64,000 nucleotides of DNA from positions 1,178,001 through 1,242,000 of the forward strand of contig NZ_CP108514.1 of assembly GCF_035989305.1 (NCBI RefSeq). The letters are read 5' to 3'. A model generated the notes under the pieces. That model ran no database searches, was not told the origin of the DNA, and worked only from the letters and a program-made list of their open reading frames with translations. The stretch is from Streptomyces sp. NBC_01233. GTDB lineage: Bacteria; Actinomycetota; Actinomycetes; Streptomycetales; Streptomycetaceae. A program made the position numbers and the translations under genes. This document shows positions 18,753 through 48,038 of this stretch, one piece after another. Position 1 is the first letter of the stretch; every line of letters starts with the position of its first letter.

Positions 18753-19331
18753 TCAGACGCTCGCCCCGCCGCCCAGCAGCCGGGCGAGCGTGCTCACCGC
18801 CCCGTCGATCTCGCGGGCGCACTCGTACAGCACAGGGTGGGGCCTCCCCCACGGGTCTGCGACGTCGTCCTCGACTGGCGGGACCGGGGCGGCGGCACCC
18901 CGACGGCCGGCCGCAGCCGCGACGACGACGTCGAAACCGTCCACGTCCCGCGGGCCTTCCCGGCCCGCTCCCCCGCCCCGCACTCCTCCCGCGGCGAGAC
19001 GCACGAATTCCTTCAGGGTGAAGCAGCGCCGCATCGCCGACGGCGCAAGCCGCACGGCCGCCTCCCTGTGCTCGATGGCAAGCCCGAGGACCAGCGCCGC
19101 TCCCACGACGAGCTGCGCGGTGAGCGGGCGGGCCGCGAAGCCGGAGCCGTCACCTCCCCGCTTCTCCAGCACCGCCCTGGTGGAGCTCTCCATACCGGGC
19201 CGGGGCCACGCCTCGGTGCCGGCGCTCTCCGGCCGCACGGCCGAGCCGGGCGGTAGCTTCGCGGCCAGCAGCCGCTCGGCAAGCACCGAGCGGTGCACGT
19301 TGCCCGTGCAGACGAACAGGACACAGGTCAT
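18753..19331 (-). CDS. Low-molecular-weight protein tyrosine phosphatase (Wzb-like)
   Basis: A 192-aa cytoplasmic phosphatase. The catalytic P-loop is at the N-terminus: FVCTGNVHRS (C8 to R14, the C-x5-R pattern). The general-acid aspartate loop is DPWGRPH near residue 159. It starts at ATG 19331, overlapping the last codons of the tyrosine autokinase, so the two are translationally coupled. In Wzx/Wzy-type polysaccharide systems this phosphatase removes phosphate from the tyrosine tail of the autokinase and resets chain-length control. It is slightly longer than typical LMW-PTPs (about 150 aa) because of Gly/Ala-rich insertions near residues 120-150. Confidence 0.85.
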   Translation of the reverse strand: MTCVLFVCTGNVHRSVLAERLLAAKLPPGSAVRPESAGTEAWPRPGMESSTRAVLEKRGGDGSGFAARPLTAQLVVGAALVLGLAIEHREAAVRLAPSAMRRCFTLKEFVRLAAGGVRGGGAGREGPRDVDGFDVVVAAAAGRRGAAAPVPPVEDDVADPWGRPHPVLYECAREIDGAVSTLARLLGGGASV

Positions 19332-20779
19332 TTCTCGCCCGCGAGATGCGTCGCCGCAGCGGCCTCCCTCCGGCGTTCCGCCCCACGGGGAGCGGGCAGC
19401 TCGCCGTACGACCCGTAGGCACCGTAGCGGTCGCCCCTGGGCACCGGAGCCATATTGAGGACGGTGCCGAGGACGCGGACACCCACGCGGTCCAGCGATT
19501 CCGCAGCAGTGTGGACCTGTTCCCGGCTGGTCTTGGCGGCGCGGACGACGAGCAGTGCGCCATGGGCGAGCGGAGCGAGTCCGACGGTGTCGGCGACAGG
19601 CAGCAGCGGCGCGCTGTCGACGATCACGACCTCGTAGGTGTCCGCCAGGTCGCGCAGCACCGCTTCCATCCGCGCCGAGGCGAGCAGCACCGTGGGATTC
19701 GGTGGTACGGCGCCGCTGGCAAGCACCGAGAGTCCGCCGCCGACCTGCTGCATCACGTCCTCGATGCGGGCCTGTCCAATGAGCACCGTGGTCAGACCGG
19801 CGTCCTGGACGAGACCGAAGGTCGAGGCCACACTCGGACGGCGCAGGTCGCCGTCCACGAGACAGGTGGAGACACCTGCCTCGGCGAGCGAGAGGGCAAG
19901 ATTCACCGCGGTGCTGGTCTTGCCCTCACCGGGCACCGAACTCGTCACCACGATGATCCGGGGCGGGTCGTCGACCTGCGAGAACTGCAGGTTGGTGCGC
20001 AGCTTGCGGAAGGCCTCGACGCGGTTGGATCGCCCATCGGCGCTGACGAGCGGTTGCCCGGGGGCGTTCCTGTCGTACGGGATGGTGCCGAGACCCGGCA
20101 GCGCGGTGAACTCGCCCAGCGCCTCGCTCGTCTTGAGCGTGGTGTCGAGGTTCTCGCGCAGGGCGACGATTCCGGCACCGAGCAGCAGGCCGCCGAGCAC
20201 TCCTGCGGCCAGGTTCAGCAGCGGGCGGGGCGAGACGGGACCGATGGGGGCGACGGCCTCCTGGGTGACGCCCAGGGAGACGGGTGAGGCACCGTCGCCC
20301 GTACGGCTGCTTCGGAACCGCTCCGAGTCGGGCGCGTACTTGGGCGCCTCCAGTCGCTCGACGACCGCGCTGAACCGCCGCGCCACGGCGTTGGCGATGC
20401 GCGCCGCACGCTTGGGCTCGGTGTCCCGGACGGTGATGTCGATGAGCACGGTGTTGAGCGGGGCGACGGCGGTGATCCGGGACGCTAGTTCCTCCGGGGT
20501 GGTGCGCAGCCGCAGCTCCTTCACCACGGGCCGGGTCACCTGACGGGTGGCCACGATCGCGGCGTACGACTGCACGCGCGCCTGCGAGAAGCTCTGACCC
20601 TGGTTCAGTTGGGCGGTGTCCTCACCGGTGCGGGTGGCGACGAAGAGCTGGGTCCTCGCCTCGTAGACGGGTGTGCTCAAGCTCGTCGCGGCGAGCGCCG
20701 CCCCGATCGCGAGAACCAGACAGACCACGACGGTCGGCCAGCGTCTGGCAAGAGCCTTCAGAAATCGGTGGAGATCCAA
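19328..20779 (-). CDS. Polysaccharide co-polymerase / tyrosine autokinase (Wzc/CapAB-like)
   Basis: A 483-aa membrane protein. The Wzz chain-length domain spans two transmembrane helices (about 15-34 and 185-207) with an external loop between them. The BY-kinase domain has Walker A SSVPGEGKTS (280-289), Walker A' CLVDGDLRRP (306-315) and Walker B VVIVDSAPLL (384-393). A C-terminal tyrosine cluster RYGAYGSYG (Tyr 452, 455, 458) is the likely autophosphorylation site. The start is TTG at 20779 after GAGGGGTGAAG. It should control polymer length and export with the flippase and polymerase further along the locus; the coupled phosphatase follows. A divergent 330-bp region separates it from the secreted protein gene. 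Confidence 0.92.
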   Translation of the reverse strand: MDLHRFLKALARRWPTVVVCLVLAIGAALAATSLSTPVYEARTQLFVATRTGEDTAQLNQGQSFSQARVQSYAAIVATRQVTRPVVKELRLRTTPEELASRITAVAPLNTVLIDITVRDTEPKRAARIANAVARRFSAVVERLEAPKYAPDSERFRSSRTGDGASPVSLGVTQEAVAPIGPVSPRPLLNLAAGVLGGLLLGAGIVALRENLDTTLKTSEALGEFTALPGLGTIPYDRNAPGQPLVSADGRSNRVEAFRKLRTNLQFSQVDDPPRIIVVTSSVPGEGKTSTAVNLALSLAEAGVSTCLVDGDLRRPSVASTFGLVQDAGLTTVLIGQARIEDVMQQVGGGLSVLASGAVPPNPTVLLASARMEAVLRDLADTYEVVIVDSAPLLPVADTVGLAPLAHGALLVVRAAKTSREQVHTAAESLDRVGVRVLGTVLNMAPVPRGDRYGAYGSYGELPAPRGAERRREAAAATHLAGEK

Positions 20780-21111: not shown

Positions 21112-21744
21112 ATGACGACATCACCCAGATGGCGGGTTTGCCTGACATCGGCAGCATCGGCTGTCGTGCTCGTCGTCGCACCGTTGGTGGGGGCGCAGAC
21201 CGCCCATGCGCAGTACCCGCCGCCACCGTACCCGCCGCCACCCCCATGCCTCACCCTGGGCGCCACCACGGCAACGGCCGGAGGTACCGTGAACTTCAGG
21301 GCTACGGGGTTCGCCCCCCGGCAGCCTGTCACGGCGTTGCTGGCATCGGACCCGATCGTCCTCGGCCGGTACCGGGCCGACGCCGGCGGGACGGCGTATG
21401 CGACCGTGACCATCCCGAACAGGGTCCGCGCCGGCTGGCACACCTTCAAGGTCACCGCGCGCAATCCCAACCTCACCTGCTCCGCTCGCATCAAGGTGCG
21501 GGCCGCGGTCGGTTGGCCAGATCACGACAGACACGACGGACACAGAGATGGCGGAAATAACGGACACGGGCATGACGGAGACGACGGACGGAACGGACAC
21601 AACGAGCCGGGGCGCCCCGACCGCAGCCCGGACCTCGCGGACACCGCCAGTGAACAGGCTCTGGCAGCGAGCGGCAGCGCAGCCGGCCTGATTGCGGCCG
21701 GCGGGGGCACGATGCTGGCCGTGCGCCGTCGCCGCAGTGCATGA
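21112..21744 (+). CDS. Secreted Pro-rich, His/Asp/Gly-rich protein with sortase-like C-terminus
   Basis: A 210-aa exported protein. It has a Sec signal peptide with hydrophobic core SAVVLVVAPLVGA and cleavage after AHA (about residue 33). A proline stretch YPPPPYPPPPP comes next, then an Ig-like beta domain (TLGATTATAGGTVNFRATGF, about 47-130) and a His/Asp/Gly-rich low-complexity segment (about 135-175). The tail is LAASG followed by a hydrophobic stretch and RRRR, arranged like a class E sortase signal (LAXTG) but with Ser for Thr. It probably sits at the cell wall or membrane next to the glycan made by the adjacent genes. Ribosome site GAGGAG upstream of ATG 21112. Confidence 0.8.
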   Translation: MTTSPRWRVCLTSAASAVVLVVAPLVGAQTAHAQYPPPPYPPPPPCLTLGATTATAGGTVNFRATGFAPRQPVTALLASDPIVLGRYRADAGGTAYATVTIPNRVRAGWHTFKVTARNPNLTCSARIKVRAAVGWPDHDRHDGHRDGGNNGHGHDGDDGRNGHNEPGRPDRSPDLADTASEQALAASGSAAGLIAAGGGTMLAVRRRRSA

Positions 21745-22306
21745 CGGAGCACGACATCAGCACGGCGGTACCACGGCGTCCCGGCCCCGGCCGAAACGCC
21801 TTCCGCATGCGCAGGCCCGGCCGCTCCCGCGAGGGGGCACCGGGCCGCCGTCGCGCGCTCAGGAACACACCGCTGGCCGCCGCGTACGCGGCCGACCGGC
21901 TGGTCGGCGACGTGCTGTCCCCGCTGGTGCGAGCCCTGCCCCCGCCCACGCCGGACAGCCGCGTTGACGGGGTGTCCGAGGCCCTCTACGACCTTGCAGC
22001 AAGCACGCGCCGGAACTCGTCCGGGCCGCCCGCGTCGCGGTCGAGGCGCAGGCCGACGTGCACGGGCTGCCCCGGTGCACCTGGCTGCCGGCGGCCGACC
22101 GGGCCCGGACCGGGCTCGCGCGGCAGATCGACCGCCTCACCCCGGAGATGACCGACGCTTCCCTGGCAGCCCGCGTCACGCTGAGCCGTTTCCTGCGCGT
22201 CACCGACCCGGCCCGCATGGTCAACGGCATTGAGCTCACCGCCGACAACGTCGTGGACCACACCGAACGGGCCAGCTACGCGATGTACGACTGGGCGGTT
22301 CCTGCC
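21741..22306 (+). pseudogene. DUF4012 protein fragment with frameshift and internal deletion
   Basis: The frame from ATG 21741 (overlapping the previous stop) reads AAAYAADRLVGDVLSPLVRA, then leaves frame near 22003. The next frame continues ELVRAARVAVEAQADVHGLP, CTWLPAADRARTGLARQIDR and jumps to VTLSRFLRVTDPARMVNGIE, then ADNVVDHTERASYAMYDWA. Each piece lines up in order with the intact DUF4012 protein at 46197-48038 (SAADRLTRDVLPPFVRIAP, TTWLPAADHARAQLLGLLDR, LGRLLRVAGPGRLPDG, DNMLDLTERTGYARY). Several hundred residues present in the intact protein are missing between them. It is non-functional. Confidence 0.8.
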
Positions 22307-23315
22307 GTGTCTGAGCGCCCGCGCCACACCGGGGCGGCCGTGCTCTTGGGTGTGCTGCTGCTCGCGTCGTGCGCGACGGGAGAGCGCGCCCTGGACGATC
22401 CGGCAGGCCGGGCCTCGGGTGGGCAGCGGTTCGCCGCGCACCGGGTCGAGCACCTGCGGGTCAAGGGCCGGTCCTCGGTACGGGCAGGGCGTCCGGGCAA
22501 GAAGTCCACGGTCCGCGCGGCACTCCCCGCGCCCTTGTTCGGTGAGGGCATCACCGTGCTCGGCCGAACCCTGTGGCAGCTCACCCGGCGGAACCGGACC
22601 GCCGTCGAGCGCGATGCCAGGATGCTCGCGGAGCTGCGTCGCGTCCCGTACCCGGACGACGGCTGGGGCGTGTGCCTCCAGCGGACCCGGCACCGGCTGG
22701 TGACCAGCGGCGGCTCGTCACGGCTGACGTTCCGCGACCCCGGGACGCTCGCGAAGACGGGCGAGGTCGCCGTGGCCGAAGGGGGCCGGCCGGTGACGGG
22801 GCTGAACGAGTTGGAGTGCGTCGGCGGCGCCGTGTACGCCAACGTGCTCTTCACCAACCGGATCATGCTCATCGACCCCGCCACCGGAGCGGTGACGGCG
22901 AGCATCGACGCCTCGGGCCTGCTGCGCGACGAACTCGTCCCGGGATCGACGCTGAACGGGATCGCGGCCATCCCCGAAACGGACCAGTTCCTGGTCACGG
23001 GGAAGTCCTGGCCCAGAATGTTCCGCTCCGCGTGCTGTTCGTCCCGGCGGGAGGCAAGCCACACTGCGACGCAGATCACCGGCCTCGCGATAACGACGCT
23101 GCCCAGCCTGGATGCGCCCTGCACACCTGGTCATGCCGACCGACTCGGTCAACGGCGAGAAGGCTGCATCCGAAAGCGTCACCGTCGCGGGCGGCAAGGC
23201 CAAGGACTCCATCCAGGTCGTGGGCGTCGCCCAGCTGCTCCTCGACTCCGTCAGGACGCCGATCGACCCGGTGGGCGAAGCGGATGCAAAGAGCGAGCCG
23301 GAGCCGGTGAAGTAA
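22307..23315 (+). pseudogene. Glutaminyl-peptide cyclotransferase lipoprotein, disrupted
   Basis: From GTG 22307 there is a lipoprotein signal with lipobox LASC (AAVLLGVLLLASCATGE). A degraded stretch follows, then clear glutamine cyclotransferase blocks: LPAPLFGEGITVLGRTLWQL, ELRRVPYPDDGWGVC, SRLTFRDPGTLAKTGEVAV, LNELECVGGAVYANVLFTNR and STLNGIAAIPETDQFLVTGK. After WPRMFR the frame changes (VLFVPAGGK continues in another frame). The last 200 bp (23112-23315) encode SVNGEKAASESVTVAGGKAK and QVVGVAQLLLDSVRTPIDPV, which I cannot assign. Intact enzymes form N-terminal pyroglutamate on exported proteins; this copy is broken in the first beta-propeller blade and near the end. Confidence 0.75.
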
Positions 23316-23334
23316 CCGGCGTTCGTACGCCGCC

Positions 23335-23369: not shown

Positions 23370-23388
23370 CAATACCAGTGACTTAAGG
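23370..23388 (+). repeat. IS terminal inverted repeat, left
   Basis: CAATACCAGTGACTTAAGG, matching the reverse complement of 24873-24891 at 18 of 19 positions. Confidence 0.95.
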
Positions 23389-23425
23389 ATCTCGGCTGGT
23401 AGGGTGTTGGCCAGGAGGTGTCTGG

Positions 23426-24878
23426 ATGCCACGCCCTGGACAGGTCAAGCCGGAGACGGACGAGCGGTTGTCGGATCGGATCGCGATCGGACTGCTGACG
23501 CGGACGTTCCCGCCGGAGCTGGTGGACCGGGTCGTGGAGGAATCCGGGAAGGCCGGGCAGCGCAACCGGCTGCTGCCTCCACGGGTGGTCGTCTACTTCG
23601 TGCTGGCGATGTGCTTGTTCTCCGGTCAGGGCTACGAAGAGGTCGCACGGCTGCTCACTCAGGGTCTGGCCTGGGCCAAGCACTGGTCGGGTTCGTGGCA
23701 GGTGCCTACGCCCGGTGCGGTTTCCCGGGCCCGGGCCAGGCTCGGGCCCGAGCCGCTCAAGGCTCTCTTCGAGCAGTCCGCCGGGCCTGTGGCGACCGAG
23801 TCCACTCCCGGTGCGTGGTACGGGTGTTGGCGTCTGATGGCGGTCGACGGGACCACGTTCGACGTGCCGGACAGTGAGGAGAACGACGCCCGGTTCGGTC
23901 GTCCCGCCACCCACCGGGGCGAGCGGACCGCGTTCCCGCAGGTGCGGGTGGTGGCGCTGGCGGAGTGCGGCACGCACGCCATCACCCGCGCGGCTCTGGG
24001 GCCGTTCACCACCGCGGAGTCCGTGATCGCGCGGGAGCTGTTCGACGCCCTTGGACCGGATGACCTGCTGATGGCCGACCGGGGCTTCGCCGGGCTGGAG
24101 CAGTGGCGAGCGGCATCGGCCGAGCGGTGCGGACCTGCTCTGGCGCATCAAGTCCAACGCCGTCCTGCCCGTGCGGCGCGAGCTCCCCGACGGGTCCTAC
24201 CTCTCCGACATCGTGGCGGCCAAGGACCACCGCAAACGCACCGATCCCACCGTGGTGCGGGTCATCGAGTACACCCTGGACGACCCCGGACGCCCGCAGC
24301 ACGACGCCCCGTACCGGCTGATCACCACCATCCTCGACCACGAAGCCGCACCCGCGGCGGAGTTGGCGGCCCTCTACAACGAGCGATGGGAGATCGAGAC
24401 CACACTGGACGAGCTGAAGACCCACCAACGCGGCCCCGCCCAGGTCCTGCGCTCCCGATCGCCCGACGGCGTCGAACAGGAGGTCTGGGCCCACCTCCTC
24501 GTCCATCACGCGATCCGCCAGCTCATGCACACCGCCGCCCGGGACACCGACACCGATACCGACCGGCTTTCCTTCACCCGCACCCTCCGCCTCGCCCGAC
24601 GCCAGGTCACCGCGCAGGCGGCCTTTTCCCCTGACCGCCTGGCCACAGCCCTCACCGACGGGATACGAGAGATAGCCCGTCACCTCCTGCCACCGCGACG
24701 ACAGCGGTCGAACGCCCGCGTCGTCAAACGCAAGATGTCCAACTTCGGCGTCAAGCGCACCGCACACCGGCTCTGGCCACAGCCGACACTCGACCCAGCC
24801 CGAGCCGTGGCCATCGCCCCACACCACAAAACGGCCCCGACCAACCCACCGAAGACCCCAGGCACCCCGGACCCTTAA
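23426..24878 (+). pseudogene. IS4-family DDE transposase, frameshifted
   Basis: The start ATG 23426 follows AGGAGGTG. The first frame carries the N-terminal domain (FPPELVDRVVEESGKAGQRN, PRVVVYFVLAMCLFSGQGY) and the catalytic block LMAVDGTTFDVPDS, and then GPDDLLMADRGFAGLEQW. At about 24130-24140 the frame shifts by one; the next frame continues DLLWRIKSNAVLPVRRELPD and the Y-x2-R-W-x-I-E block YNERWEIETTLDELKTHQRG, ending at TAA 24876-24878 inside the right inverted repeat. Together they would make a protein of about 480 aa, normal for the family. IS4 transposases are read from one frame, so this copy is probably dead. Confidence 0.92.
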
Positions 24879-24891
24879 ATCACTGGTATTG
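24873..24891 (-). repeat. IS terminal inverted repeat, right
   Basis: Reverse complement reads CAATACCAGTGATTTAAGG. It contains the transposase stop codon. Confidence 0.95.
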
Positions 24892-25126: not shown

Positions 25127-26245
25127 ATGCACATCGTGCGGGTGAGCTACCGGGTCCCCCCAATGCCGGGAGGAATGGAACGCCATGTCGAATACCTGAC
25201 GCGTCATCAGGTCAATGGCGGAAACCGGGTGACGATGTCGTTCCGGCACGGGGCGACGGTACCGGTCGGAGCCACGCGACTGCCGCTCCGAAGGATCCCC
25301 CGGTCCCGGATGCTCGGGCCGGTGTCCGACCGGCTCGCTTTCGCGGCGGAAGCCGCTGCGGCGATCAAGGACCTCTGCGCCGCCCGACGCAACGTGGACG
25401 TTGTGCATCTCCACGGCGACCACATCGAGGCCGCCGGGCTGGGTCCCGTGTGCCGACGCCTGGGAATTCCGCTGTTCCTGACGGTGCATGCGGCACTCAC
25501 CGACCGGCATCAGTGGCTCGCACGGCACGCTTTCCGGCATGTGAGGGCCTTCATCGCCCTGGGGTCGGCGACCGCTGCCGACCTCGCGGCGCGTGGCGTG
25601 GACCGGGAACGCATCCTCACCATGTCCAGCGGCCTGGAGTTGTCCGCCATGCCGTCCCCCATCGATGCTCTGGCCCGTGAGCCCGGCCTGATCGTCAGCG
25701 TCGGCGCGCTGAACCCGATGAAGAACCACCATCTGCTCATCGAGGCGTTCCACGAACTGGCGCACAGTCGGCCGGGCATGCGTCTGGTGATCGCGGGAGA
25801 AGGCCCGGAGCGGGACCGCCTCAACCGGCTCGCAGCGGCGGGTCCGGGAGTCGAACTGGTCGGTCCGCTGCGCCGACAGAAGGTCTACGACCTGGTCCGG
25901 CGAGCCGAAGTGTTCGTCCTCGCGTCACGCAGACTCTCCGGGAAGGGCGAAGGCGTGCCCACGGCGGCGCTGGAGGCGCTCGCGCTGGGCACGCCCGTCG
26001 TGGTGTCCTCGGACGCCTCGCTCGATCCGGTGGTCACCGACCGCGAGGCCTATCGGGTCTTCCCATCAGGCTCGAAGGCGGACCTGGTGCATGTTCTGAG
26101 AACCGTGCTCGACGACGGACCGGGCCGCAACCGGATGAGTGAGCTCGGGGTACGTGCGGCCGCGGAGCTGGACTGGTCCCGGGTCGCAAAGCGCGTCGAG
26201 AAGTGGTACCGAGCAGCGCCGGAACAGCTGCACTCCTTCGCATGA
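25127..26245 (+). CDS. Glycosyltransferase family 4
   Basis: A 372-aa retaining GT-B glycosyltransferase. The N-terminal acceptor domain starts MHIVRVSYRVPPMPGGMERH; the donor domain has LIVSVGALNPMKNHHLLIEA, VIAGEGPERDRLNRL and the nucleotide-sugar motif GVPTAALEALALGTPVVVSS (about residue 280). ATG 25127 is set by GAGGTGGAG; the open frame begins earlier but that part is not conserved-looking. It is the first gene of a plus-strand run (GT4, FkbM, epimerase, FkbM) and its promoter would lie in the 200 bp after the IS. The sugar transferred is unknown. Confidence 0.9.
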   Translation: MHIVRVSYRVPPMPGGMERHVEYLTRHQVNGGNRVTMSFRHGATVPVGATRLPLRRIPRSRMLGPVSDRLAFAAEAAAAIKDLCAARRNVDVVHLHGDHIEAAGLGPVCRRLGIPLFLTVHAALTDRHQWLARHAFRHVRAFIALGSATAADLAARGVDRERILTMSSGLELSAMPSPIDALAREPGLIVSVGALNPMKNHHLLIEAFHELAHSRPGMRLVIAGEGPERDRLNRLAAAGPGVELVGPLRRQKVYDLVRRAEVFVLASRRLSGKGEGVPTAALEALALGTPVVVSSDASLDPVVTDREAYRVFPSGSKADLVHVLRTVLDDGPGRNRMSELGVRAAAELDWSRVAKRVEKWYRAAPEQLHSFA

Positions 26246-26269: not shown

Positions 26270-27154
26270 ATGCCGACGACAATTCATGGCATGGCCAAAA
26301 TGGTCTGGGAACATCCCGCCAACCGTGGGCGGCGGGCTCAGGCCTTCGCCGCCATGGCGGGATGGCAAGCCTGGAAGAGGATGATCGGGCAGCCACTGGA
26401 ATTGTCCGTATACGGCGACATGTCGTTCCGCGCCTATCCTGACAGCACGCAGCCGGGTCGTTTCGTCTATTTCGGCGGGCTTCCGGATTACGAAGAAATG
26501 ACTTTCATGAAGCGATATCTCCGGCCTGGAGACGGGTTTATCGACGGCGGTGCCAACGAAGGAATGTTCACCTTGCTCGCCGCCCAGCTCGTGGGGCCGA
26601 ACGGAGCCGTACACGCCTTCGAGGCCGTGCCCGCGTTTGTGAAACGGCTGCAGGACAACGTCGGCGTGAATTCCCTGCGTTGTGTGACGGTCCATGAAAT
26701 GGCGATCGGGGCCGAGCAGGGCACCGTGTCGTTCGTTGTGAGGGGCTCTGGTTCACGCATCCGGACCGAGGCCGACAGCGACAGCGACAGCGCCGTGCAG
26801 GTGAGGCTCGGCCGGCTCGACGAGACCCTGCCCGAACGCTCCTTCGCGATGGGCAAGCTCGACGTCGAAGGCACGGAACACCTGGCCCTCCGTGGTGCAG
26901 ACCGACTCATCGCCCGGGGCGAGCCGGCGGTGTGGATGCTCGAACTCGTCGACAAGTTCCTCCACCGCTTCGGCTCCACGGCCCGTGAGGTCCGTCGATG
27001 GCTCGGTGACCACGATTACGACATGGTGCTCTACGACCCGGACCGCAACCGGCTCGTCCCAGCGCCGGATCAGCTCTCCGCGGGGCCCGATGTACTGGCT
27101 GTGTGCCGCCGCCGACGGCCGGATGTGGAAGCGCGGCTCGCCGCTGCGGTCTGA
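26270..27154 (+). CDS. FkbM family methyltransferase
   Basis: A 294-aa SAM-dependent methyltransferase. The SAM motif I equivalent is GDGFIDGGANEGMFTLLAA (about residue 88), followed by VHAFEAVPAFVKRLQDNV, and later AMGKLDVEGTEHLALRGAD, the hallmark K-x-D-x-E-G block of FkbM proteins. By family it O-methylates a sugar hydroxyl. The ATG at 26270 has GAAAGGGAG upstream and lies 24 nt after the GT4 stop, so it is in the same operon. A short Asp/Ser repeat (DSDSDS) lies near residue 167. Confidence 0.88.
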   Translation: MPTTIHGMAKMVWEHPANRGRRAQAFAAMAGWQAWKRMIGQPLELSVYGDMSFRAYPDSTQPGRFVYFGGLPDYEEMTFMKRYLRPGDGFIDGGANEGMFTLLAAQLVGPNGAVHAFEAVPAFVKRLQDNVGVNSLRCVTVHEMAIGAEQGTVSFVVRGSGSRIRTEADSDSDSAVQVRLGRLDETLPERSFAMGKLDVEGTEHLALRGADRLIARGEPAVWMLELVDKFLHRFGSTAREVRRWLGDHDYDMVLYDPDRNRLVPAPDQLSAGPDVLAVCRRRRPDVEARLAAAV

Positions 27155-28345: not shown

Positions 28346-28365
28346 CACGGAGAGCGGTGGGCGGC

Positions 28366-35031: not shown

Positions 35032-35054
35032 CACGTCGTCCTCTCGGGAAACAG

Positions 35055-35540
35055 TCACCGATGGAGTGGGGTGCCGGCCGCCAGTGACAGCTTGCCTTCC
35101 GGCGTGGTGCCGGTCACGCGGAAGCCCGCACGTGCGTACAGGTCAAGTGCCGGCTGGTTGCGGGGGTCGCAGATGAGAGTGACGATGCCGGGCGTTCGCG
35201 CCAGGAGGAGGGCGAGCAGCCGAGAAGCGATACCGGTGCCCTGGTGACGAGGGTCGGTGGCCACGCGGTGAATGTGCGCGCCCTCGGGACGCCGGGAGGC
35301 AATCACGAATCCGACCGGCTTCCCGCGCAGGGTCGCGACGAGGCTCAGCTCGCGCTTTCCGGGAAGGTGCCGGGCGAAGTTCTCGGCCTGCCACGGACCG
35401 GTGTCGTAGTGGCTGCTTGCCCGGTGCACGCGCTGTTCCAACTCGACGAGCGGGTCGAGCAGTTTGTCGACGACATCGCCCAGGCGATGCAGGTCTCGGG
35501 CGGGCTGCCGGACGGCTGTCTTCCCCTTCGTACTGTGCAT
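35055..35540 (-). CDS. GNAT family N-acetyltransferase
   Basis: A 161-aa acetyl-CoA-dependent transferase. The acetyl-CoA binding motif A is IHRVATDPRHQGTGIASRLL (R/Q-x-x-G-x-G/A form), preceded by ELSLVATLRGKPVGFVIASR and followed by LICDPRNQPALDLYARAGFR. ATG 35540 is chosen because GAGGGA lies 6 nt upstream; the open frame continues 44 codons further without family resemblance. It lies 23 nt before the PIG-L gene and is the first gene of that minus-strand operon. It could acylate the amino group freed by the PIG-L enzyme; this is inference. Confidence 0.87.
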   Translation of the reverse strand: MHSTKGKTAVRQPARDLHRLGDVVDKLLDPLVELEQRVHRASSHYDTGPWQAENFARHLPGKRELSLVATLRGKPVGFVIASRRPEGAHIHRVATDPRHQGTGIASRLLALLLARTPGIVTLICDPRNQPALDLYARAGFRVTGTTPEGKLSLAAGTPLHR

Positions 35541-35729
35541 CCAAGTCCCTCGAGGTCGCGGCTTTCGCATGAGCGTCCCAGGGCGGAGGCCGCAGGAGGC
35601 TTCGGCGAGCCGATCCGGGCACATCAGTACCTCCGACGGCGTATTGGGGACGCGGGCTCCCGCGTGCCGCATACACAGTGCCGCGTCGGCGCGGCCACAC
35701 TCGGCCCGGTGACATTGCCAAGGACGCGA

Positions 35730-39415: not shown

Positions 39416-40885
39416 TCAGTGGTCTCCGCCGCAGGCCGCGCCGACCGCATGGACTCGGGAGCCAGTCCCCACCGGACCCCGCCCGGCCTGGACACCCGGA
39501 TCCGGCATCGACCGGGTGAGGCACCTCAGCACGATGAACCAGCCGGCCGTGCTCAGGACCATGAGGCCCAGATTTCCCCATGCCCAGGCCAGTGCCCTGC
39601 CCGACGCACCGGCACAGAAGTGAATGACGGCGGCCAGCATCCCGAGCTGACAGACGCCCTCGGCGGTGAGAAAGACCAGCCTGACACCGGGGAAGCCCAG
39701 AGCCGAGGGCAGAACTTTGGACCAGATCGCCGTGCCACGCAGCGCGGCCCCCGCCAGCATGACCACCGCCGCCGTGGACAGAATCGTGTACTGGGGGCCG
39801 TACATCAGGCCGATCAGCAGGCCGAGGAGGAAAACCGCGACCACCACCGCGACCAGTCCGATGGCGCCGACGAGTGCACTGCAGCGGCGGACGTCGCGCA
39901 CCACCGCCCATCGGCGCCCATCGGCTCCGGCCCGTGCAAGACGCGGGTAGAGCTGTGACGCCACTGGGTTGACGGCGCTCCCGAAGAGACGGCCCGGAGC
40001 GCCGGCGATTTTCAGGTACGTCACCAGGGTGGGGCCACCGAGCAGTCCGGCCAGAAGGGAGACGCCGCTGTCCGAAGCCAGGGAGACGGACTGGGTCGCC
40101 GAACTCTTCACCAGGAAGGGCAACAGGCCTGCCGGCATCGGAGCGGGGCCGTCAGCGGGAGGGCCGCACGCCTGCCTCACCTGCCGCCAGGCGATCACGG
40201 TGACGGATACGGTGGAAACCAGGCCGGTGATCACGGTGGCCACCAGGTAGCCGCCCGTGCCGGCCGTCATCAATGCCGTCAGCGTCACCAGGAAGCCGAA
40301 GACGGCGAGCGCCACGCGGATCACTCCGAGCCGCTCAAGTCGGTCGGAGATCGCGAAACCGGCCGATGCACTGCCCCAGGGCGTGGCCGCTCCTGCCGCC
40401 AGCACGGCAGGCACGAGCAGCGACAGCCGTTCGGCGGGGATCCATCCGAGGGCCGCGGCGGCCAGCGCCGCCGCCACGCCCAGGACCGTGGCCAGCAGCC
40501 CGGCCCCGATGTCCAGCCGGAGAAGCCGGCAGTACAGCCGGGTTCCGCAACCGGGGCCGCGACGTTGTTCCATGGGAACGAACCGCTGCTGCGCGTCCTC
40601 GAAGCGCGGATCCCCCAGCAGGAACCAGACCGCTGCCATGGCCTGGGCCAGAAGCACCTCCCCCGCCGCAGTGCTCCCGACCAGCCGGACCAGTGTGACG
40701 GTGGTGGCGAACGAGAGTGCCGCCTCGATCTGGCTGGCGGCGGTGAGCGAGCCGAAGGTCCTCAGATGCCGTTGCCAGGGCAGGCGCCTCGCCAAGCGCC
40801 TCACCCACCTCCCGGGGTCGGTCCCGGCGCCTGTGGCATCCAGCGGCGCCGCCGTTGACGGTGTACCTCTCACCTGCTGCTGCAC
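39416..40885 (-). CDS. Polysaccharide flippase (Wzx-like, MOP superfamily)
   Basis: A 489-aa membrane protein with about twelve to fourteen hydrophobic helices, for example LLATVLGVAAALAAAALGW, VALAVFGFLVTLTALMTAG, VGAIGLVAVVVAVFLLGLLI and TAAVVMLAGAALRGTAIW. The N-terminal TFGSLTAASQIEAALSFATT and the central KIAGAPGRLFGSAVNPVASQ patterns are like lipopolysaccharide translocases. It would flip the lipid-linked repeat unit made by the glycosyltransferases. Its start is preceded by GAGGAGGTGCAGCAGCAGG-type purine sequence. About 160 bp with a hairpin separates it from the upstream dehydrogenase. Confidence 0.88.
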   Translation of the reverse strand: MQQQVRGTPSTAAPLDATGAGTDPGRWVRRLARRLPWQRHLRTFGSLTAASQIEAALSFATTVTLVRLVGSTAAGEVLLAQAMAAVWFLLGDPRFEDAQQRFVPMEQRRGPGCGTRLYCRLLRLDIGAGLLATVLGVAAALAAAALGWIPAERLSLLVPAVLAAGAATPWGSASAGFAISDRLERLGVIRVALAVFGFLVTLTALMTAGTGGYLVATVITGLVSTVSVTVIAWRQVRQACGPPADGPAPMPAGLLPFLVKSSATQSVSLASDSGVSLLAGLLGGPTLVTYLKIAGAPGRLFGSAVNPVASQLYPRLARAGADGRRWAVVRDVRRCSALVGAIGLVAVVVAVFLLGLLIGLMYGPQYTILSTAAVVMLAGAALRGTAIWSKVLPSALGFPGVRLVFLTAEGVCQLGMLAAVIHFCAGASGRALAWAWGNLGLMVLSTAGWFIVLRCLTRSMPDPGVQAGRGPVGTGSRVHAVGAACGGDH

Positions 40886-41046: not shown

Positions 41047-42333
41047 TCAGAGGATCTCGACACGCTCACCCCGGCAGCGATTCCGCGAGTCGAAAACGTA
41101 GGCACCGGCCTCTTCGACGAGTGCGTAGTCGAAGGCATCGTGATCGGTCGCCACGACGACCACGTCGGCCGCCCGGACCTCCGCCTCGGTGAGTTCGACC
41201 CGGGTGATCTGCGGAGGAACTAGGTACGAGTCGGTGTGCGGCTCCACCACCACCAGCCGGGCGCCGAGAGCGAGCAGCGACCGGGCGATGGCGAGGGCCG
41301 GCGACTCACGGATGTCGCCCGTGTTCTTCTTGTAGGCCAGACCGAGTTGCAGTACGCGCGAGCCCTTGACCGACTTACCGCGTTCGTTCAGTCCGCGGGT
41401 GATCCGCCAGACGGCATGGGACGGCATGTGATCGTTGATCTCATTGGCCAGGGAGATGAATCGGAGATCCTGTTTCAGCAGCCTCTTGACCTGCCACGAC
41501 AGATAGGACGGGTCCACCGGCAGGCAGTGTCCGCCCACGCCGGGACCTGGTCGGAACGGCATGAAGCCGAACGGCTTGCTGCTGGCGGCCTCCACGGCCT
41601 CCCAGATGTCGGCACCCAACTGTCGGGACACCATGGCCATTTCGTTGACCATCGCAATGTTGACGTGCCGGTAGGTGTTCTCCAGCAGCTTGGTCAGCTC
41701 GGCAGTTCGGCACGAACTCACCGGCACAGTCCGCTCCACGATGTCGCCGTAGAATTTCCGGACGTTGCGCAGGGACGCGGCGTCGATCCCGGAGACCACC
41801 TTGGGTGTGTTCTCCAGGTGCCAGTCGGGGTTGCCCGGGTCGATGCGCTCGGGGCTGTAGCCGAGGTGGAAATCCGCTCCGGCCCTCAGTCCGCTGCCCG
41901 CTTCCAGCAGCGGCAGCAGCAGGCTCTCGGTCGTCCCGGGATACGTGGTGGACTCGAGGACCACGGTGGCGCCGGGTGAGATGTGGGGGGCGATGCTCCG
42001 ACCGGCGCACTCCACGAAACTCAGATCGGGGACGCCCTCACGCAGGGGTGTCGGCACGGTGATGACGCATACGTCGAAACCGTCGATCCCGTCGTAGTCG
42101 GTGGCGGCACGGAAGTGGCCGCTGTCCGTGATGGCCATGAGGCGTGCGTCGTCGACGCCTTCGATGTAGGAGTCGCAGGCGCCCAGGCGTTTGACACGCA
42201 ACTCGTCGGTATCCACGCCGACGACGGAATATCCCGCCTCGACCGCCCGGACGGCCAGCGGAAGGCCTACGTAGCCCAAGCCTACGACGATCAGGTTGCG
42301 CCTGTCGGCGACGCTGCTCTGACGCACCCTCAT
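41047..42333 (-). CDS. Nucleotide-sugar 6-dehydrogenase (UDP-GlcNAc/ManNAc type)
   Basis: A 428-aa UDP-sugar dehydrogenase that oxidises C6 of a UDP-sugar to a uronic acid. It has NAD motif LIVVGLGYVGLPLAVRAVEA, VPTPLREGVPDLSFV, STTYPGTTESLLLP, YSPERIDPGNPDW, the helix block KLLENTYRHVNIAMVNEMA, the catalytic cysteine in GPGVGGHCLPVDP and LAYKKNTGDIRESPALAI. These features match the WecC/TviB/WbpA branch rather than UDP-glucose dehydrogenase. ATG 42333 is chosen because GGAG lies just upstream; ATG 42360 has no ribosome site and falls in a small palindrome. It supplies an acidic sugar. Confidence 0.9.
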   Translation of the reverse strand: MRVRQSSVADRRNLIVVGLGYVGLPLAVRAVEAGYSVVGVDTDELRVKRLGACDSYIEGVDDARLMAITDSGHFRAATDYDGIDGFDVCVITVPTPLREGVPDLSFVECAGRSIAPHISPGATVVLESTTYPGTTESLLLPLLEAGSGLRAGADFHLGYSPERIDPGNPDWHLENTPKVVSGIDAASLRNVRKFYGDIVERTVPVSSCRTAELTKLLENTYRHVNIAMVNEMAMVSRQLGADIWEAVEAASSKPFGFMPFRPGPGVGGHCLPVDPSYLSWQVKRLLKQDLRFISLANEINDHMPSHAVWRITRGLNERGKSVKGSRVLQLGLAYKKNTGDIRESPALAIARSLLALGARLVVVEPHTDSYLVPPQITRVELTEAEVRAADVVVVATDHDAFDYALVEEAGAYVFDSRNRCRGERVEIL

Positions 42334-42591: not shown

Positions 42592-43662
42592 ATGGATCGT
42601 TGTTCGAAGTACCTGGTCACCGGCGGAGCCGGCTTCATCGGCTCCCATCTCGTGGACGCACTGCTGGCTGACGGAAACAGCGTGGTGGTCCTCGACAACC
42701 TCACCACCGGCCGGCAGGAAAACCTCACCCAGGCGCGAGCGAACCCATGCTTCCGCTTCGTCCACGGGTCCGTGCTGGATGCGCCGCTCGTCGACGAGCT
42801 GGTGCAGGAATGCAAGATTGTCATCCATTTGGCTGCCGCCGTAGGGGTCAAACTCATCGTCGAGCAGCCGTTGAGGTCGTTCATCACGAACACAAAAGGC
42901 ACCGAGACCGTCATCGAGTCCGCGCAGCGCCACGATCGCAGGATTCTCATCGCCAGCACCTCGGAAATCTACGGGAAGAATTCCTCCGGACCGCTCAGCG
43001 AGACCTCCGACCGCATCCTGGGCAGCCCGTCCGTGGCCCGGTGGTCGTACAGCACCGCCAAGGCGGTGGACGAGATCATGGCCTGCCTCTACCACCGCGA
43101 GCGAGGGCTGAGGTCGACGGTGGTCCGGTTCTTCAACACCGTGGGACCCCGCCAGAGCCCGGCGTACGGAATGGTCATTCCGCGATTCGCCCGGCAGGCA
43201 GTGCTCGGGGAACCCCTCACGATCCATGCGGACGGCCGCCAGAGACGCTGCTTTCTGCATGTCGCCGATGCCGTCTCGGCGCTGCTGCTCCTGCTGGAAC
43301 AGCCCGAGGCGGTGGGAGAGACCTTCAATATCGGCGTGGACGACGAGATCGGCATCCTCGAGCTCGCCAACCGGATCATCGCCGAGACCGGAAGCATCTC
43401 ACGGGTGGAACATCTGTCGTACGCCGAGGCATACGGAGCGGACTTCGAGGACATGGAACGACGAGTCCCCGACACCACGAAACTCCGCGCAGTGACGGGC
43501 TGGCAGCCCCGGCACAGCCTCGCCGACGTGCTCGCGGACGCGATCGCGGACGCCCGTGCCGCATGGCGCGACAACCCGTCGGCACACGTGCCGGGCGCCC
43601 CGGAGCAACTTCTCCCAGTGACCGACGGGCCCGTTTCCGGAATCGCTCTGGCGGGACGGTGA
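42592..43662 (+). CDS. NAD-dependent nucleotide-sugar epimerase/dehydratase
   Basis: A 356-aa SDR enzyme. It has YLVTGGAGFIGSHLVDALLA at the N-terminus, VVVLDNLTTGRQENL, HLAAAVGVKLIVEQPLRSF, catalytic STSEIYGK and WSYSTAKAVDEIMACLYHRE, then VRFFNTVGPRQSPAYGMVIP. The HLAAAVGV and STSEIYG signatures match UDP-glucuronate decarboxylase/4-epimerase-like proteins. ATG 42592 is chosen (GGAG 11 nt upstream). Its stop overlaps the GTG of the priming transferase. Together with the dehydrogenase across the promoter it may convert an oxidised sugar onward, which is inference. Confidence 0.88.
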   Translation: MDRCSKYLVTGGAGFIGSHLVDALLADGNSVVVLDNLTTGRQENLTQARANPCFRFVHGSVLDAPLVDELVQECKIVIHLAAAVGVKLIVEQPLRSFITNTKGTETVIESAQRHDRRILIASTSEIYGKNSSGPLSETSDRILGSPSVARWSYSTAKAVDEIMACLYHRERGLRSTVVRFFNTVGPRQSPAYGMVIPRFARQAVLGEPLTIHADGRQRRCFLHVADAVSALLLLLEQPEAVGETFNIGVDDEIGILELANRIIAETGSISRVEHLSYAEAYGADFEDMERRVPDTTKLRAVTGWQPRHSLADVLADAIADARAAWRDNPSAHVPGAPEQLLPVTDGPVSGIALAGR

Positions 43663-44867
43663 CCGGCATCAGCGCAGCGGTGCCGATGGCGGGAGCAGGC
43701 GTCGCGGCCCTGCTGATCGGAGGGCTGCTGACGGAACCAATGCGGCGCTTCGCCCTTCGCCATGGGATCACCGACCGTCCCAGCGCCCGTAAGGCGCACA
43801 CCAGGCCCACGCCCTATCTCGGCGGTGTCGCCGTCGCGCTCGCCACCCTTGCCGCGGGTACGGCCGTCGCGCTCGCCCGGGGTGTCTTCGACCCGCTTCT
43901 CGGGGTGCTGCTCGGCGGCGCGGCAATCGTGTGCGTCCTCGGGCTCATCGACGATCTGCGCCAGCTGGGCCCAAAGATCCGGCTGTTCGTCGAGACGTCG
44001 ACCGCCACGCTGGTGGTAGCGGCAGGGGGGCATCCGACCGTCTTCGGCGGCGCGGTCGACGCGGTGCTCGCCGTCCTCTGGATCGTCTTCATCACGAATG
44101 CGTTCAACCTGCTGGACAACATGGACGGCGCAGCGTCATCGCTGTGTGTCGTCATCGGCGGATTCGTCTGCCTGACTGCCCTGCCAGGCGATCCAGACGG
44201 CCTGGGTGTGGTGATGGCGGCCCTGACCGGGGCCTGTCTCGGCTTCCTGTTCCACAACAGGAATCCGGCACGGATCTTTCTCGGTGACGCGGGCTCACTC
44301 TTCCTCGGCTTCACGCTGGCCTCCGCGATGATGGTGCGCCACGATGGCGCCGCCGGCCTGTCCGGACCCGCCAGTCTGCTGCTCGCCACCCTGGTTCCGA
44401 CGTTGGACACCACGCTGGTGATGCTGTCCCGCTACCGGGAGTCGAGGCCCCTGCTGCAAGGCGGCACGGACCACATCGCTCACCGGTTGCGGCGCATGGG
44501 GTTGACAGTGCCGCAGGTCGTCCGGACACTCAGCGCCTTCGCTGTGGTGGGCTGCTTGGCCGCCATGCTGGTGACCTACGGGTTGCTTGCTTCCGGCATT
44601 GCGCTCCTCGCCGTCTCCGCGGTGGGGATCGGGGCGGTGTGGCTGCTACTCAAAGTCCCCGCTGTGGCCACCGCTTCGCCGCGCGTCGCGGTCCCGGCCG
44701 GGGCCCTGGCCGACGGGGCCGCTCGTACAGCACTCCGGTTGAGGCACAGTGGTGGGTCCGGACGCCGCCACAGGGCGGTCCGGCCGATGGGTGTGCCGCA
44801 TTCACGGGGAGCCCGGAAGGCCACCGCATTGTCCCCGCCAGCGGGCACTCCGGTCGCACCGCAGTGA
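43659..44867 (+). CDS. Undecaprenyl-phosphate sugar-1-phosphate transferase (WecA/MraY family)
   Basis: A 402-aa polytopic membrane enzyme that primes glycan assembly by moving a sugar-1-phosphate from a UDP-sugar to undecaprenyl phosphate. Motifs are HTRPTPYLGGVAVALATLA (about residue 46), IDDLRQLGPKIRLFVE, the active-site NAFNLLDNMDGAASSLCVV, NRNPARIFLGDAGSLFLGFT and the loop GGTDHIAHRLRRMGL. About ten helices. The GTG 43659 overlaps the epimerase stop (GTGA), so the two are coupled. After about residue 340 there is a non-conserved basic/Ala tail of about 60 residues. Confidence 0.92.
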   Translation: MTGISAAVPMAGAGVAALLIGGLLTEPMRRFALRHGITDRPSARKAHTRPTPYLGGVAVALATLAAGTAVALARGVFDPLLGVLLGGAAIVCVLGLIDDLRQLGPKIRLFVETSTATLVVAAGGHPTVFGGAVDAVLAVLWIVFITNAFNLLDNMDGAASSLCVVIGGFVCLTALPGDPDGLGVVMAALTGACLGFLFHNRNPARIFLGDAGSLFLGFTLASAMMVRHDGAAGLSGPASLLLATLVPTLDTTLVMLSRYRESRPLLQGGTDHIAHRLRRMGLTVPQVVRTLSAFAVVGCLAAMLVTYGLLASGIALLAVSAVGIGAVWLLLKVPAVATASPRVAVPAGALADGAARTALRLRHSGGSGRRHRAVRPMGVPHSRGARKATALSPPAGTPVAPQ

Positions 44868-45008: not shown

Positions 45009-46151
45009 ATGACCATGACGCGTATCTGCGAAGTGATCAAGACCCTCGACGTCGGCGGTGCCGAGGTCCTTCTGGTCGAACGCCTGCGCAGGGCGCCCCG
45101 GTCCGATCGTGACTACACCGTGGTCTTCCTCCAAGCCGAGACGCAGGAACTGGTGGATGCACTCCGGGACTGCGGAGTGACACTCGTCGATCTCCGGTCC
45201 TGTCCGCGGAGGCTGCGCTACCTCGGGCTGCTCCGTGCCGTGCGGCGCCTGGCCCCGGACGTGGTCAATGTTCACTCCCCGTTGCCCGCTGCGGTGCTGC
45301 GCCCCGCCCTGCATTTGATGCGCCCGCGCCCGGCACTGATCTCCACGGTGCACTATGTGCGGTGTCACCCGCTGACGAGGCTGCTCGAACGGCCGACGCG
45401 GCGCCTTGACGATCTAACGGTGGCCGTCTCACCACAGGTGGCCGCCTCCGGATCCGTGCGGGGCGCTCGCCAGGTCCGTACGCGCATCCACGGGGTGGAC
45501 GTGGCCGCGCAGCGCAGCTGGGCGCAACGAGCGGACCAGGTGCGGGAGGAGTTCGGGATCCCGGCGGAGGCCTTCATACTGGCTTTCGTGGCCAACTTCC
45601 GTCCGGTGAAGAACCACGCGCTGCTGGTCGAAGCAGCCGCTCTGGTACTCGAGCGGCGTCCTGACGCGCTGTTCGTCCTGGCCGGGGACGGCCCTCTGCG
45701 CGAGCAGGTGCTCGCGGACATCCGCCGACGCGGGCTACAGGACCGGATGCCGTATCTGGGACGGATTCAGCAGGCTGGCCGGCTGGTGGCGGCTGCCGAC
45801 ATCCTGGTTCTGGCATCCCACTACGAAGCGATGCCCGTGGTCGTCATGGAGGCACTGGCATCCGCTGTGCCGGTGGTGGCCACCAGGGTAGGGGGAATCC
45901 CCGACCTGGTCCGCGACGGCGACAACGGCGTCCTCGTCCAGCCCGGTTCACCACAACGGCTGGCGGAAGGCATCCTGCGCGCCATGCGGCCCGAGGTTCA
46001 TTCCGCGCTCGCCGCCCGAGCGCTCGCCGACACCACCTCGGTGGACGTTGCCTCCACCGCGGCATGGTTCGACAACGTCTACGCCGCCTTGGCGAGCGGA
46101 GTCCGGGAAAGCCGAAGAGAACCCGTCCCGGGAGGAGCACAGGTCCGCTGA
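45009..46151 (+). CDS. Glycosyltransferase family 4
   Basis: A 380-aa GT-B enzyme. N-terminal ICEVIKTLDVGGAEVLLVER, acceptor region VVNVHSPLPAAVLRPALHL and STVHYVRCHPLTRLLERPTR, donor domain LAFVANFRPVKNHALLVEAA, FVLAGDGPLREQVLADIRRR and SHYEAMPVVVMEALASAVPV with GDNGVLVQPGSPQRLAEGI. It ends 45 bp before the convergent DUF4012 gene. Start ATG 45009 sits after GGAAGGCGG. The sugar donor is unknown. Confidence 0.9.
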   Translation: MTMTRICEVIKTLDVGGAEVLLVERLRRAPRSDRDYTVVFLQAETQELVDALRDCGVTLVDLRSCPRRLRYLGLLRAVRRLAPDVVNVHSPLPAAVLRPALHLMRPRPALISTVHYVRCHPLTRLLERPTRRLDDLTVAVSPQVAASGSVRGARQVRTRIHGVDVAAQRSWAQRADQVREEFGIPAEAFILAFVANFRPVKNHALLVEAAALVLERRPDALFVLAGDGPLREQVLADIRRRGLQDRMPYLGRIQQAGRLVAAADILVLASHYEAMPVVVMEALASAVPVVATRVGGIPDLVRDGDNGVLVQPGSPQRLAEGILRAMRPEVHSALAARALADTTSVDVASTAAWFDNVYAALASGVRESRREPVPGGAQVR

Positions 46152-46196: not shown

Positions 46197-48038
46197 TCAG
46201 TCGCCGCACGCCGGGTAGGGCTCCACATGAGCCCGCAGCGGTGTGACCAGCGGCTGGCGCCACAGCACGGGCGCATGGTCGCTGACCGGCTCCAGGAGCT
46301 GGAGCGTCAGGGTACGGGCGCGCTGCGCGGGCAGTTCCAGGTCCAGCGTGTAGACCGGGTGTCGGAGTTCCTCGCCGACGCCCACCAAGGCGGTCCGGCC
46401 GTCGAGGGCCGCACCGGTGAGTTGTGCGCCCGTGCTGGCGTAGTAGGAAACCAGCACCCGGTTGTCCCCCGGCCGGGTGGGGTACGCCGGTTTGTCGCCT
46501 CGCTGGGTGACGTAGGGAGGAAGCCCCGACCTCGGCGCCCGGTTGGTGAGAGTGATCCGCGCGGTGACGAGCCGACCTTCCGGTGTACAGCGGCCCGGAA
46601 CCCAGCTCAGCTCTCGCTCCAGGTAGTAATCCAGCTTCCCGCCCGCAGCGTTGTTGACGACGAGTCCGGCGAAGGGACCGGTCTCCTGGGGAAACGTGCC
46701 GCTCAACGGACGGGTCGACAGCAGACGTTGCTCGTTCTCCCGGGCGCTCCACACCTTCAGCCGTCCTGTCGCCGCGTCACCGTACGCCGCCTTGAGCAGT
46801 CCGGGAATCCGTCGCGGCCCGTGGAAGGCGTCCACCAGGGTGGTGACTGCCGTGCGCGCCACCCCGAGGAGGAACGCCTTGCGCGCCGCGTCGTCGGAGT
46901 AGCGTGCGTAGCCCGTGCGCTCCGTGAGGTCCAGCATGTTGTCGCCGGTGAGCGCCGCGCCGTCGGGCAGTCGTCCCGGGCCCGCCACTCGCAGCAATCG
47001 GCCCAGGGTGGTGGGGTCCAGGGCGATGACCCCGTCCACCCTCTTGCCGCTGCGCTGGCGCCAGGTTGCCGCCCAGATACGGGCGGCGTAGGGGAAATGC
47101 GGGCTGAGATTGGAGTTGGCCCAGAAGCGGGTGGGCTCGTACCGGGCATAGCGGGCGGTGTATTCGGATCCCAGATCGACCGAAGGACTGCCACCCGTCA
47201 CCCCGTCGTCATTGTCGAAGGTCTCGAAGTGCAGTTTTCCCCGTTCTGCGGTGAGCACGGCGAAGGCCCCCGGCATGCCGCCGGTGCCGCGGGCTTCCGC
47301 CGTGTTCTGGACGCCGACGAAATACCGTCGAGGACCCTGTTCCCCCAGCATCGCCGGCAGCACACGGGCGGCCACAGCGGCATCAGACGTGACAGGGGCG
47401 ATCCGGTCGAGCAACCCCAACAGTTGCGCGCGTGCGTGGTCGGCCGCCGGCAGCCAGGTGGTACGGGGAAGACGGCCGGCCTCCGCGCGCGTCTCGGCGA
47501 CCACCCGCGCCGCCCGCTCGAGAGCCGGAGCCTTGCCGCCGAAGGCGGACAGCAGGGCTCCCCTCCCGCCCTCACTGGAGTCATCGGCGAGTTCGGGAGC
47601 GATGCGCACGAACGGCGGAAGTACGTCGCGAGTCAACCGGTCGGCGGCGCTCGCCGCGCCGCGAACCGTTTCCGCGGGTCGGCCGAAGAACGGCACCTGC
47701 GCGAAGAGATACCAGGCGGGCCCGGTGGTCAGGCGATGCGCCCGGGCGGCGTGCACCGCCGCAGAGCTCATCGCTGCCCCCGAGGCAGCGTTCCCCGTCG
47801 TATCCACGACCGAGTGCCGCAGCGTATCCAGCGACCGCTGAGCGGCCAGCAACTCCGTCCGGGCAAGCAGACCGGTGCCCACGATCCAACCCGCCAGGGC
47901 AAGACACAGGACGGCGACGGCCGACAGCACGTGCCGGGCACGAGGCCGTGGGAATCGGCAACGCGCCGGCTCCGTCCCTGAAGACCGCCCCGTGTTTTCG
48001 ATGAACTTGAGACGCTCACGCAGGTGTCGCAGCCGCAC
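46197..48038 (-). CDS. DUF4012 membrane-anchored protein
   Basis: A protein of about 613 aa with one N-terminal transmembrane helix (VLSAVAVLCLALAGWIVGTG) and a large external part. Conserved DUF4012 blocks include GPAWYLFAQVPFFGRPAETV, RRYFVGVQNTAEARGTGGMP with GAFAVLTAERGKLHFE, and DGVIALDPTTLGRLLRVAG. The domain's function is not known; it is repeatedly associated with surface glycan loci in actinobacteria. The open frame reaches 48335, but the upstream 99 residues are Cys/Arg-rich and do not look like the family; GTG 48038 is the most likely start although its ribosome site is weak. A partial paralogue is at 21741-22306. Confidence 0.82.
   Translation of the reverse strand: MRLRHLRERLKFIENTGRSSGTEPARCRFPRPRARHVLSAVAVLCLALAGWIVGTGLLARTELLAAQRSLDTLRHSVVDTTGNAASGAAMSSAAVHAARAHRLTTGPAWYLFAQVPFFGRPAETVRGAASAADRLTRDVLPPFVRIAPELADDSSEGGRGALLSAFGGKAPALERAARVVAETRAEAGRLPRTTWLPAADHARAQLLGLLDRIAPVTSDAAVAARVLPAMLGEQGPRRYFVGVQNTAEARGTGGMPGAFAVLTAERGKLHFETFDNDDGVTGGSPSVDLGSEYTARYARYEPTRFWANSNLSPHFPYAARIWAATWRQRSGKRVDGVIALDPTTLGRLLRVAGPGRLPDGAALTGDNMLDLTERTGYARYSDDAARKAFLLGVARTAVTTLVDAFHGPRRIPGLLKAAYGDAATGRLKVWSARENEQRLLSTRPLSGTFPQETGPFAGLVVNNAAGGKLDYYLERELSWVPGRCTPEGRLVTARITLTNRAPRSGLPPYVTQRGDKPAYPTRPGDNRVLVSYYASTGAQLTGAALDGRTALVGVGEELRHPVYTLDLELPAQRARTLTLQLLEPVSDHAPVLWRQPLVTPLRAHVEPYPACGD

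Follow-up and report, generated by a model that had tools for sequence, protein, structure and literature searches.

The Wzx/Wzy clusters wps-1, wps-2 and wps-3 are known from Actinoplanes missouriensis (available text of PMC13390465). In Streptomyces sp. 139, the polysaccharide Ebosin is produced by the ste cluster of 27 open reading frames (ORFs), where ste5 encodes a galactosyltransferase and ste8 a Wzz protein (available parts of PMC4347597 and PMC8902715). Here we analysed a 64,000-nt stretch of the genome of Streptomyces sp. NBC_01233, further called the window, which contains a candidate surface polysaccharide locus at 18753..48038. Surface glycans of Streptomyces matter for phage sensitivity, mycelial aggregation and differentiation. 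Taken as a whole, the data are best explained by a mosaic Wzx/Wzy surface polysaccharide locus with a DUF4012 protein fixing the polymer to the envelope, and we lean towards this explanation. The Wzx/Wzy-type gene set seen in a preliminary description of the locus is real. The distinctive part of the locus, overlooked there, is the DUF4012 protein, a small surface protein and glutaminyl cyclotransferase (QC).

Wzx/Wzy genes and the predicted polymer

Families were assigned by comparing Pfam (PF) and TIGR profiles with their cut-offs. The polyprenyl-phosphate N-acetylhexosamine (HexNAc)-1-phosphate transferase (PNPT), the MOP-fold Wzx, the Wzy_C protein and the fused Wzz and bacterial tyrosine kinase (BY-kinase) all match the respective families or folds, and the claim of a Wzx/Wzy pathway is well supported. 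Judging by these matches and predicted folds, the locus very probably makes a Wzx/Wzy polymer. Its genes are as follows.

18753..19331, minus: low-molecular-weight protein tyrosine phosphatase, core module (PF01451, 59.2 bits)
19328..20779, minus: fused Wzz/BY-kinase whose C-terminus has the Tyr cluster RYGAYGSYG, core module (over cut-off for PF02706 and TIGR01007)
21112..21744, plus: small secreted surface protein, core module (orthologues in 38/45 loci)
21741..22300, plus: decayed DUF4012 remnant (pieces match DUF4012 of genome G101 at 78% and 62% identity)
22300..23070, plus: truncated QC, N-terminal part gone (PF05096, positions 58-246 of 249)
23370..24890, plus: IS4-type insertion sequence (PF13006/PF01609; second frame 24171-24878)
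25127..26245, plus: GT4 glycosyltransferase 1 (PF00534, 105 bits)
26270..27154, plus: FkbM-type methyltransferase 1 (PF05050)
27377..28345, plus: NAD-dependent sugar epimerase/dehydratase 1 (PF01370; no equivalog cut-off reached)
28357..29118, plus: FkbM-type methyltransferase 2 (TIGR01444, 42.7 bits against a cut-off of 37.7; under the Pfam cut-off)
29162..30364, minus: GT4 glycosyltransferase 2 (PF00534, 110 bits)
30365..31141, minus: Methyltransf_24 methyltransferase (PF13578)
31973..32527, plus: hexapeptide-repeat acyltransferase (PF00132; no equivalog cut-off reached among the matches listed, 25 of 48 families)
32499..33671, minus: GT4 glycosyltransferase 3 (PF00534, 114 bits)
33668..34366, minus: WbqC-family protein (PF08889, 169.5 bits)
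34363..35034, minus: PIG-L-type de-N-acetylase (PF02585; 81-96% identity in nine relatives)
35055..35672, minus: GNAT N-acetyltransferase, start uncertain (PF00583)
35730..37091, plus: Wzy_C-type polymerase/ligase, 453 aa, 12 hydrophobic 19-mers (PF04932, 40.2 bits, cut-off 31.7)
37238..38428, plus: GT4 glycosyltransferase 4 (PF00534, 101 bits)
38454..39380, plus: NAD-dependent sugar epimerase/dehydratase 2 (PF01370)
39416..40804, minus: Wzx flippase (MOP fold)
41047..42327, minus: nucleotide-sugar 6-dehydrogenase, nearest to UDP-HexNAc types (TIGR03026, 386 bits, cut-off 189.8)
42592..43662, plus: NAD-dependent sugar epimerase/dehydratase 3 (PF01370)
43659..44867, plus: WecA/MraY-like PNPT, predicted priming enzyme (PF00953, 106 bits, over cut-off; TIGR02380 under cut-off)
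45009..46151, plus: GT4 glycosyltransferase 5 (PF00534, 126 bits)
46197..47981, minus: intact DUF4012 protein, start uncertain (to 48038)

The WecA-like PNPT would prime the polyprenyl carrier, and the GT4 enzymes would assemble the repeat unit on it. The unit would then be flipped by Wzx and polymerised by the Wzy_C protein, the process being controlled by the fused Wzz/BY-kinase and the phosphatase. The Wzy_C family also takes in O-antigen ligases. A priming enzyme of the PF02397 family was considered as well, and no match to it was found in the window. A sugar of HexNAc-uronic type, together with methyl and N/O-acyl substituents, may be present in the repeat unit. The acidic sugar, acylation and O-methyl groups named previously are putative, being read from family names.

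To our knowledge, Streptomyces have no lipopolysaccharide. The earlier comparison with Gram-negative loci holds for the Wzx/Wzy build. However, the Gram-negative framing is only half apt, since actinomycete Wzx/Wzy clusters are being described, as the available parts of PMC13390465 (Actinoplanes) and PMC5412050 (Bifidobacterium) demonstrate. In line with the preliminary description, no account of exactly this polymer was found in the open-access literature, yet Ebosin of Streptomyces sp. 139 is known (PMC4347597, PMC8902715, in part).

Conserved core and sugar cassette

DUF4012 is present in 39 of 392 sampled Streptomyces genomes (9 of 121 in another sample). The census of Streptomyces DUF4012 loci covered 45 stretches (the studied one and 8, 8 and 28 others) extending about 20 kb to each side of DUF4012, less in G125, G126, G147 and G185. 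It left out G381, where DUF4012 is cut at the contig end, and G390, identical to G127 in contig and position. The fused kinase was observed in 43 loci, the phosphatase in 42, the small secreted protein in 38, and QC in 25 (150 or more aligned residues required), including the truncated copy of the studied strain. All 35 kinases that were parsed (43 loci) have tyrosines in the C-terminal tail. In G378, G101, G117, G248, G177, G294 and G242, the phosphatase is followed by the kinase, the small protein, DUF4012 and QC, in this order. These counts support a candidate core that consists of the kinase, the phosphatase, the small surface protein, DUF4012 and often QC.

Modular exchange of the repeat-unit cassette against the conserved core is very probable on comparative grounds. 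A scan of the genome collection for WbqC produced 46 loci, among them eight Streptomyces at 71-84% identity: sp. Y2F8-2, S. olindensis, S. dysideae, sp. MUM 178J, sp. 8K308 (two contigs), S. cavernae, S. luteolifulvus and sp. AC555_RSS877. Much of the cassette is found in these eight and in G105, in many cases with unchanged gene order, and some blocks are inverted or relocated. Single genes are absent in some relatives, e.g. the Methyltransf_24 methyltransferase and epimerase 1 in MUM 178J and S. cavernae. WbqC occurs in 9/45 DUF4012 stretches; G125 has it on a different contig. The GC content of the cassette is 68.5%, compared to 71.4% and 73.0% in the flanks. On the tree of 42 kinases, nine of them with the cassette label (G126 fell out), this label needs four changes, and four are forced by well-supported branches. 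The kinase of the studied strain is sister to that of G378 (support 98/82), and no WbqC match was found in the G378 stretch. Against free exchange stands the clustering of the label on the tree (0 of 500 shuffles were as low); the tree also carries a long-branch warning. As the label is clustered and not random, exchange would be occasional. These observations point to capsule-switching-like mosaicism in Streptomyces.

Six of the nine cassette relatives have a polymerase with 56-69% identity to the studied one, and no match was found in S. olindensis, S. cavernae and S. luteolifulvus; because of this pattern, the polymerase may be exchanged independently of the other cassette genes. An apparent status of Wzy as the least conserved gene proved to be an artefact of a wrong-frame query (35678-36835). 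The cassette relatives in G122, G126 and G127 (loci L081-L082 and L087-L090) have no detectable match to the studied Wzy and probably use another polymerase and linkage.

The PIG-L gene stands beside or near WbqC also in distant loci, e.g. L040 and L050 from metagenome-assembled genomes (MAGs) of Anaerolineae/Anaerolineales, and this suggests a deacetylation/re-acylation step. The two genes are close in L040, L050 and L058 (Anaerolineae/Anaerolineales and Cyanobacteria MAGs), accompanied by an NDP-sugar dehydrogenase in L040 and L050; here the pair is a possible de-N-acetylation/acylation module.

The locus starts in the G378-type order, but DUF4012 and QC are decayed and followed by the IS4-type element, the cassette, and the second, intact DUF4012, similar to the far cassette end in G121. 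The remnant has lost the core of its LytR-CpsA-Psr (LCP)-like domain and its frame is broken; G101 holds an intact copy at this position, and truncation of QC was also judged against G101. The IS4-type element has near-perfect terminal inverted repeats, the direct repeat GTTCTAGGAG at both sides, and a broken transposase frame. In the simplest history, a cassette would have entered a G378-like resident core and brought a DUF4012 of its own, after which the resident copies of DUF4012 and QC would have decayed.

The right end of the locus is abutted by a tyrosine integrase (48807-49910), a helix-turn-helix gene and tRNA-Pro(ggg) (50375-50449, minus strand), with apparent transposase/integrase scraps at approximately 48440-48740. 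An island in tRNA-Pro was considered and rejected: no 14-mer of 50201-50470 recurs in the window, an att-site pair outside it not having been sought.

DUF4012 and the fate of the polymer

The intact DUF4012 protein has an N-terminal membrane helix, an LCP-like domain (about residues 207-425) and a C-terminal beta domain. The predicted fold agrees with that of the LCP domain, the region matched being the lipid-pyrophosphate-binding domain. In the profile comparison, where 34/36 DUF4012 and 36/38 LCP loci passed the filter, the E-x-R motif was kept in all 34 DUF4012 domains. An LCP-like fold of DUF4012 is likely. Such a protein would take the finished lipid-linked polymer and fix it to the cell envelope, and therefore the product would be wall-attached and capsule-like, not a free exopolysaccharide. 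This mechanism is our preferred one, although the case for it is nearly balanced. Several observations speak against it. The DUF4012/LCP profile score was above 100/100 column shuffles, but the hhalign probability was just 0.2%, 4.5% and 13% in three comparisons. Foldseek alone gave no DUF4012 match at E<=0.001 (best 1.8e-03). The alignment, which is weak, contains neither an evident counterpart of the SIPRD-type catalytic arginine nor an arginine at least 80% conserved at the second LCP catalytic site. Finally, ten ordinary LCP matches elsewhere in the genome are possible attachers. A sequence-only search for structural relatives of the DUF4012 profile, WbqC and Wzx produced no convincing PDB match.

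In the available parts of the open-access literature, subscription papers being outside the search, DUF4012 is only termed unknown or auxiliary, and "LytR" is not mentioned in the DUF4012 papers searched for this term. Attachment would give a testable role to a domain that 49 of the 149 sampled genomes of Actinomycetota encode.

Another possibility, real but not a likely one, is that the polymer is released as an Ebosin-like exopolysaccharide, and DUF4012 assists in polymerising or exporting it, e.g. as a lipid-pyrophosphate-binding co-polymerase, rather than acting as a ligase. Indeed, Ebosin was isolated from culture supernatants (PMC4347597, available part), DUF4012 shows no evident conservation of the canonical LCP arginines, and the window has no PF03816 LCP gene. 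On the other hand, the invariant E-x-R and the match to the lipid-pyrophosphate-binding domain of LCP argue against this reading.

The polymer could also be linked to protein: DUF4012 would glycosylate the small protein, which would be anchored by sortase, its N-terminal Gln being cyclised by QC. The small protein has a signal peptide ending in AxA/Q (the slash marks the cleavage point), one Ig-like stretch and a C-terminus resembling a sorting signal, and the genome has 11 sortase matches. LAxTG is present in 30 of 38 homologues and LVATG in one; in the cassette-bearing loci of G105 (L026) and G125 (L093), the C-terminus has no recognisable LAxTG. The AxA/Q site was sought after the hydrophobic core by an identical rule in the family and in background ORFs. 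It was found in 33/38 small proteins, compared to 19/319 other ORFs of the same loci; the rule misses G101, where an internal hydrophobic stretch was picked, and in G358, G262 and G147 it takes other sites further upstream. A separate count that also required a following YP gave 30/38. It replaced a cruder cutter, which cuts within the hydrophobic stretch and gave Q in just 4/25 small proteins. At 32-35% identity, the weakest matches to the small protein (in G030, G262, G147 and G358) might be Ig-like surface proteins of another kind. The substrate of glutaminyl cyclases is a mature N-terminal Gln. Thus the presence of QC would be explained by the mature small protein starting with Gln, which offers a rationale for this enzyme within polysaccharide loci. 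QC and DUF4012 occur together in 27/392 genomes, where chance would give 4.1 (Fisher p 2e-22, relatedness uncorrected), at most 40 kb apart in 23 of the 27 (the others being G105, G136, G237 and G262). G105 has a weak second DUF4012 match. There is also a precedent, LcpA of Actinomyces oris, which glycosylates the sortase-anchored GspA (PMC6381275, available part).

However, the small protein was undetected in 7/45 loci, 20/45 stretches have no QC alignment of 150 residues or more, and DUF4012 is absent from 14 of the 41 genomes with QC. In the studied strain the LADTG motif reads LADTA, and QC, the sole PF05096 match in the genome, is broken together with one DUF4012; a second copy of the small protein was not found in this genome. 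The protein branch looks impaired here, which speaks for either direct wall attachment or loss of function in this strain. Linkage to the small protein is rather doubtful. Doubtful too is the fullest version, with a strain-exchanged sugar cassette and DUF4012 as a diverged lineage of glycopolymer transferases with LCP fold (active site E-x-R-x-T-G-G) that hands the Wzx/Wzy capsule to a pyroglutamate-capped, sortase-anchored small protein.

The decayed DUF4012 and QC, the mutated sorting motif and the insertion sequence might also mark the locus as a relic that no longer functions in the studied strain. This is improbable, as the frames of PNPT, Wzx, Wzy, the five GT4 enzymes, kinase, phosphatase and right-hand DUF4012 are open and full-length. 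A wall polymer resembling teichuronic acid, grown on the lipid carrier as a single long chain with no Wzx/Wzy polymerisation, would account for the WecA/TagO-type priming enzyme and the NDP-sugar dehydrogenase, but given the Wzx fold and the Wzy_C protein within one cassette it is very improbable.

Comparison with known systems

The core was not found described in the open-access literature on Streptomyces Wzx/Wzy, on sortase, LAXTG and polysaccharide, or on kinase and QC, subscription papers being outside the search. Pneumococcal-type cps loci share with it the Wzx/Wzy capsule, BY-kinase control, attachment by LCP proteins and exchange of cassettes between conserved genes; in contrast, they have separate kinase and Wzz proteins and a canonical LCP protein. 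The ste cluster, compared by description and not by sequences, is also a Streptomyces repeat-unit polysaccharide cluster with Wzz, but Ebosin is secreted into the medium and ste2-4 are ABC transporter genes (PMC4347597, PMC8902715, in part). The wps clusters of Actinoplanes are likewise actinomycete Wzx/Wzy clusters and have a flippase, an O-antigen-ligase-like protein and a Wzz-type protein, whereas no DUF4012, QC or LAxTG partner is reported in the available text; wps-1 has sulfotransferases, and wps-2 has a PF02397-type sugar transferase instead of the WecA-like PNPT (PMC13390465). In A. oris, a gene for an LCP-fold enzyme is likewise linked to that of a sortase-anchored protein, but LcpA is a canonical LCP protein with R149 and R266, where DUF4012 keeps the E-x-R motif (PMC6381275, in part). 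In the capsular/exopolysaccharide locus of Bifidobacterium longum 105-A, the priming gene encodes an undecaprenyl-phosphate galactose phosphotransferase and DUF4012 is termed an auxiliary protein; however, as in the Streptomyces locus, there are glycosyltransferases, and the priming transferase, DUF4012 and wzz stand side by side (PMC5412050, in part).

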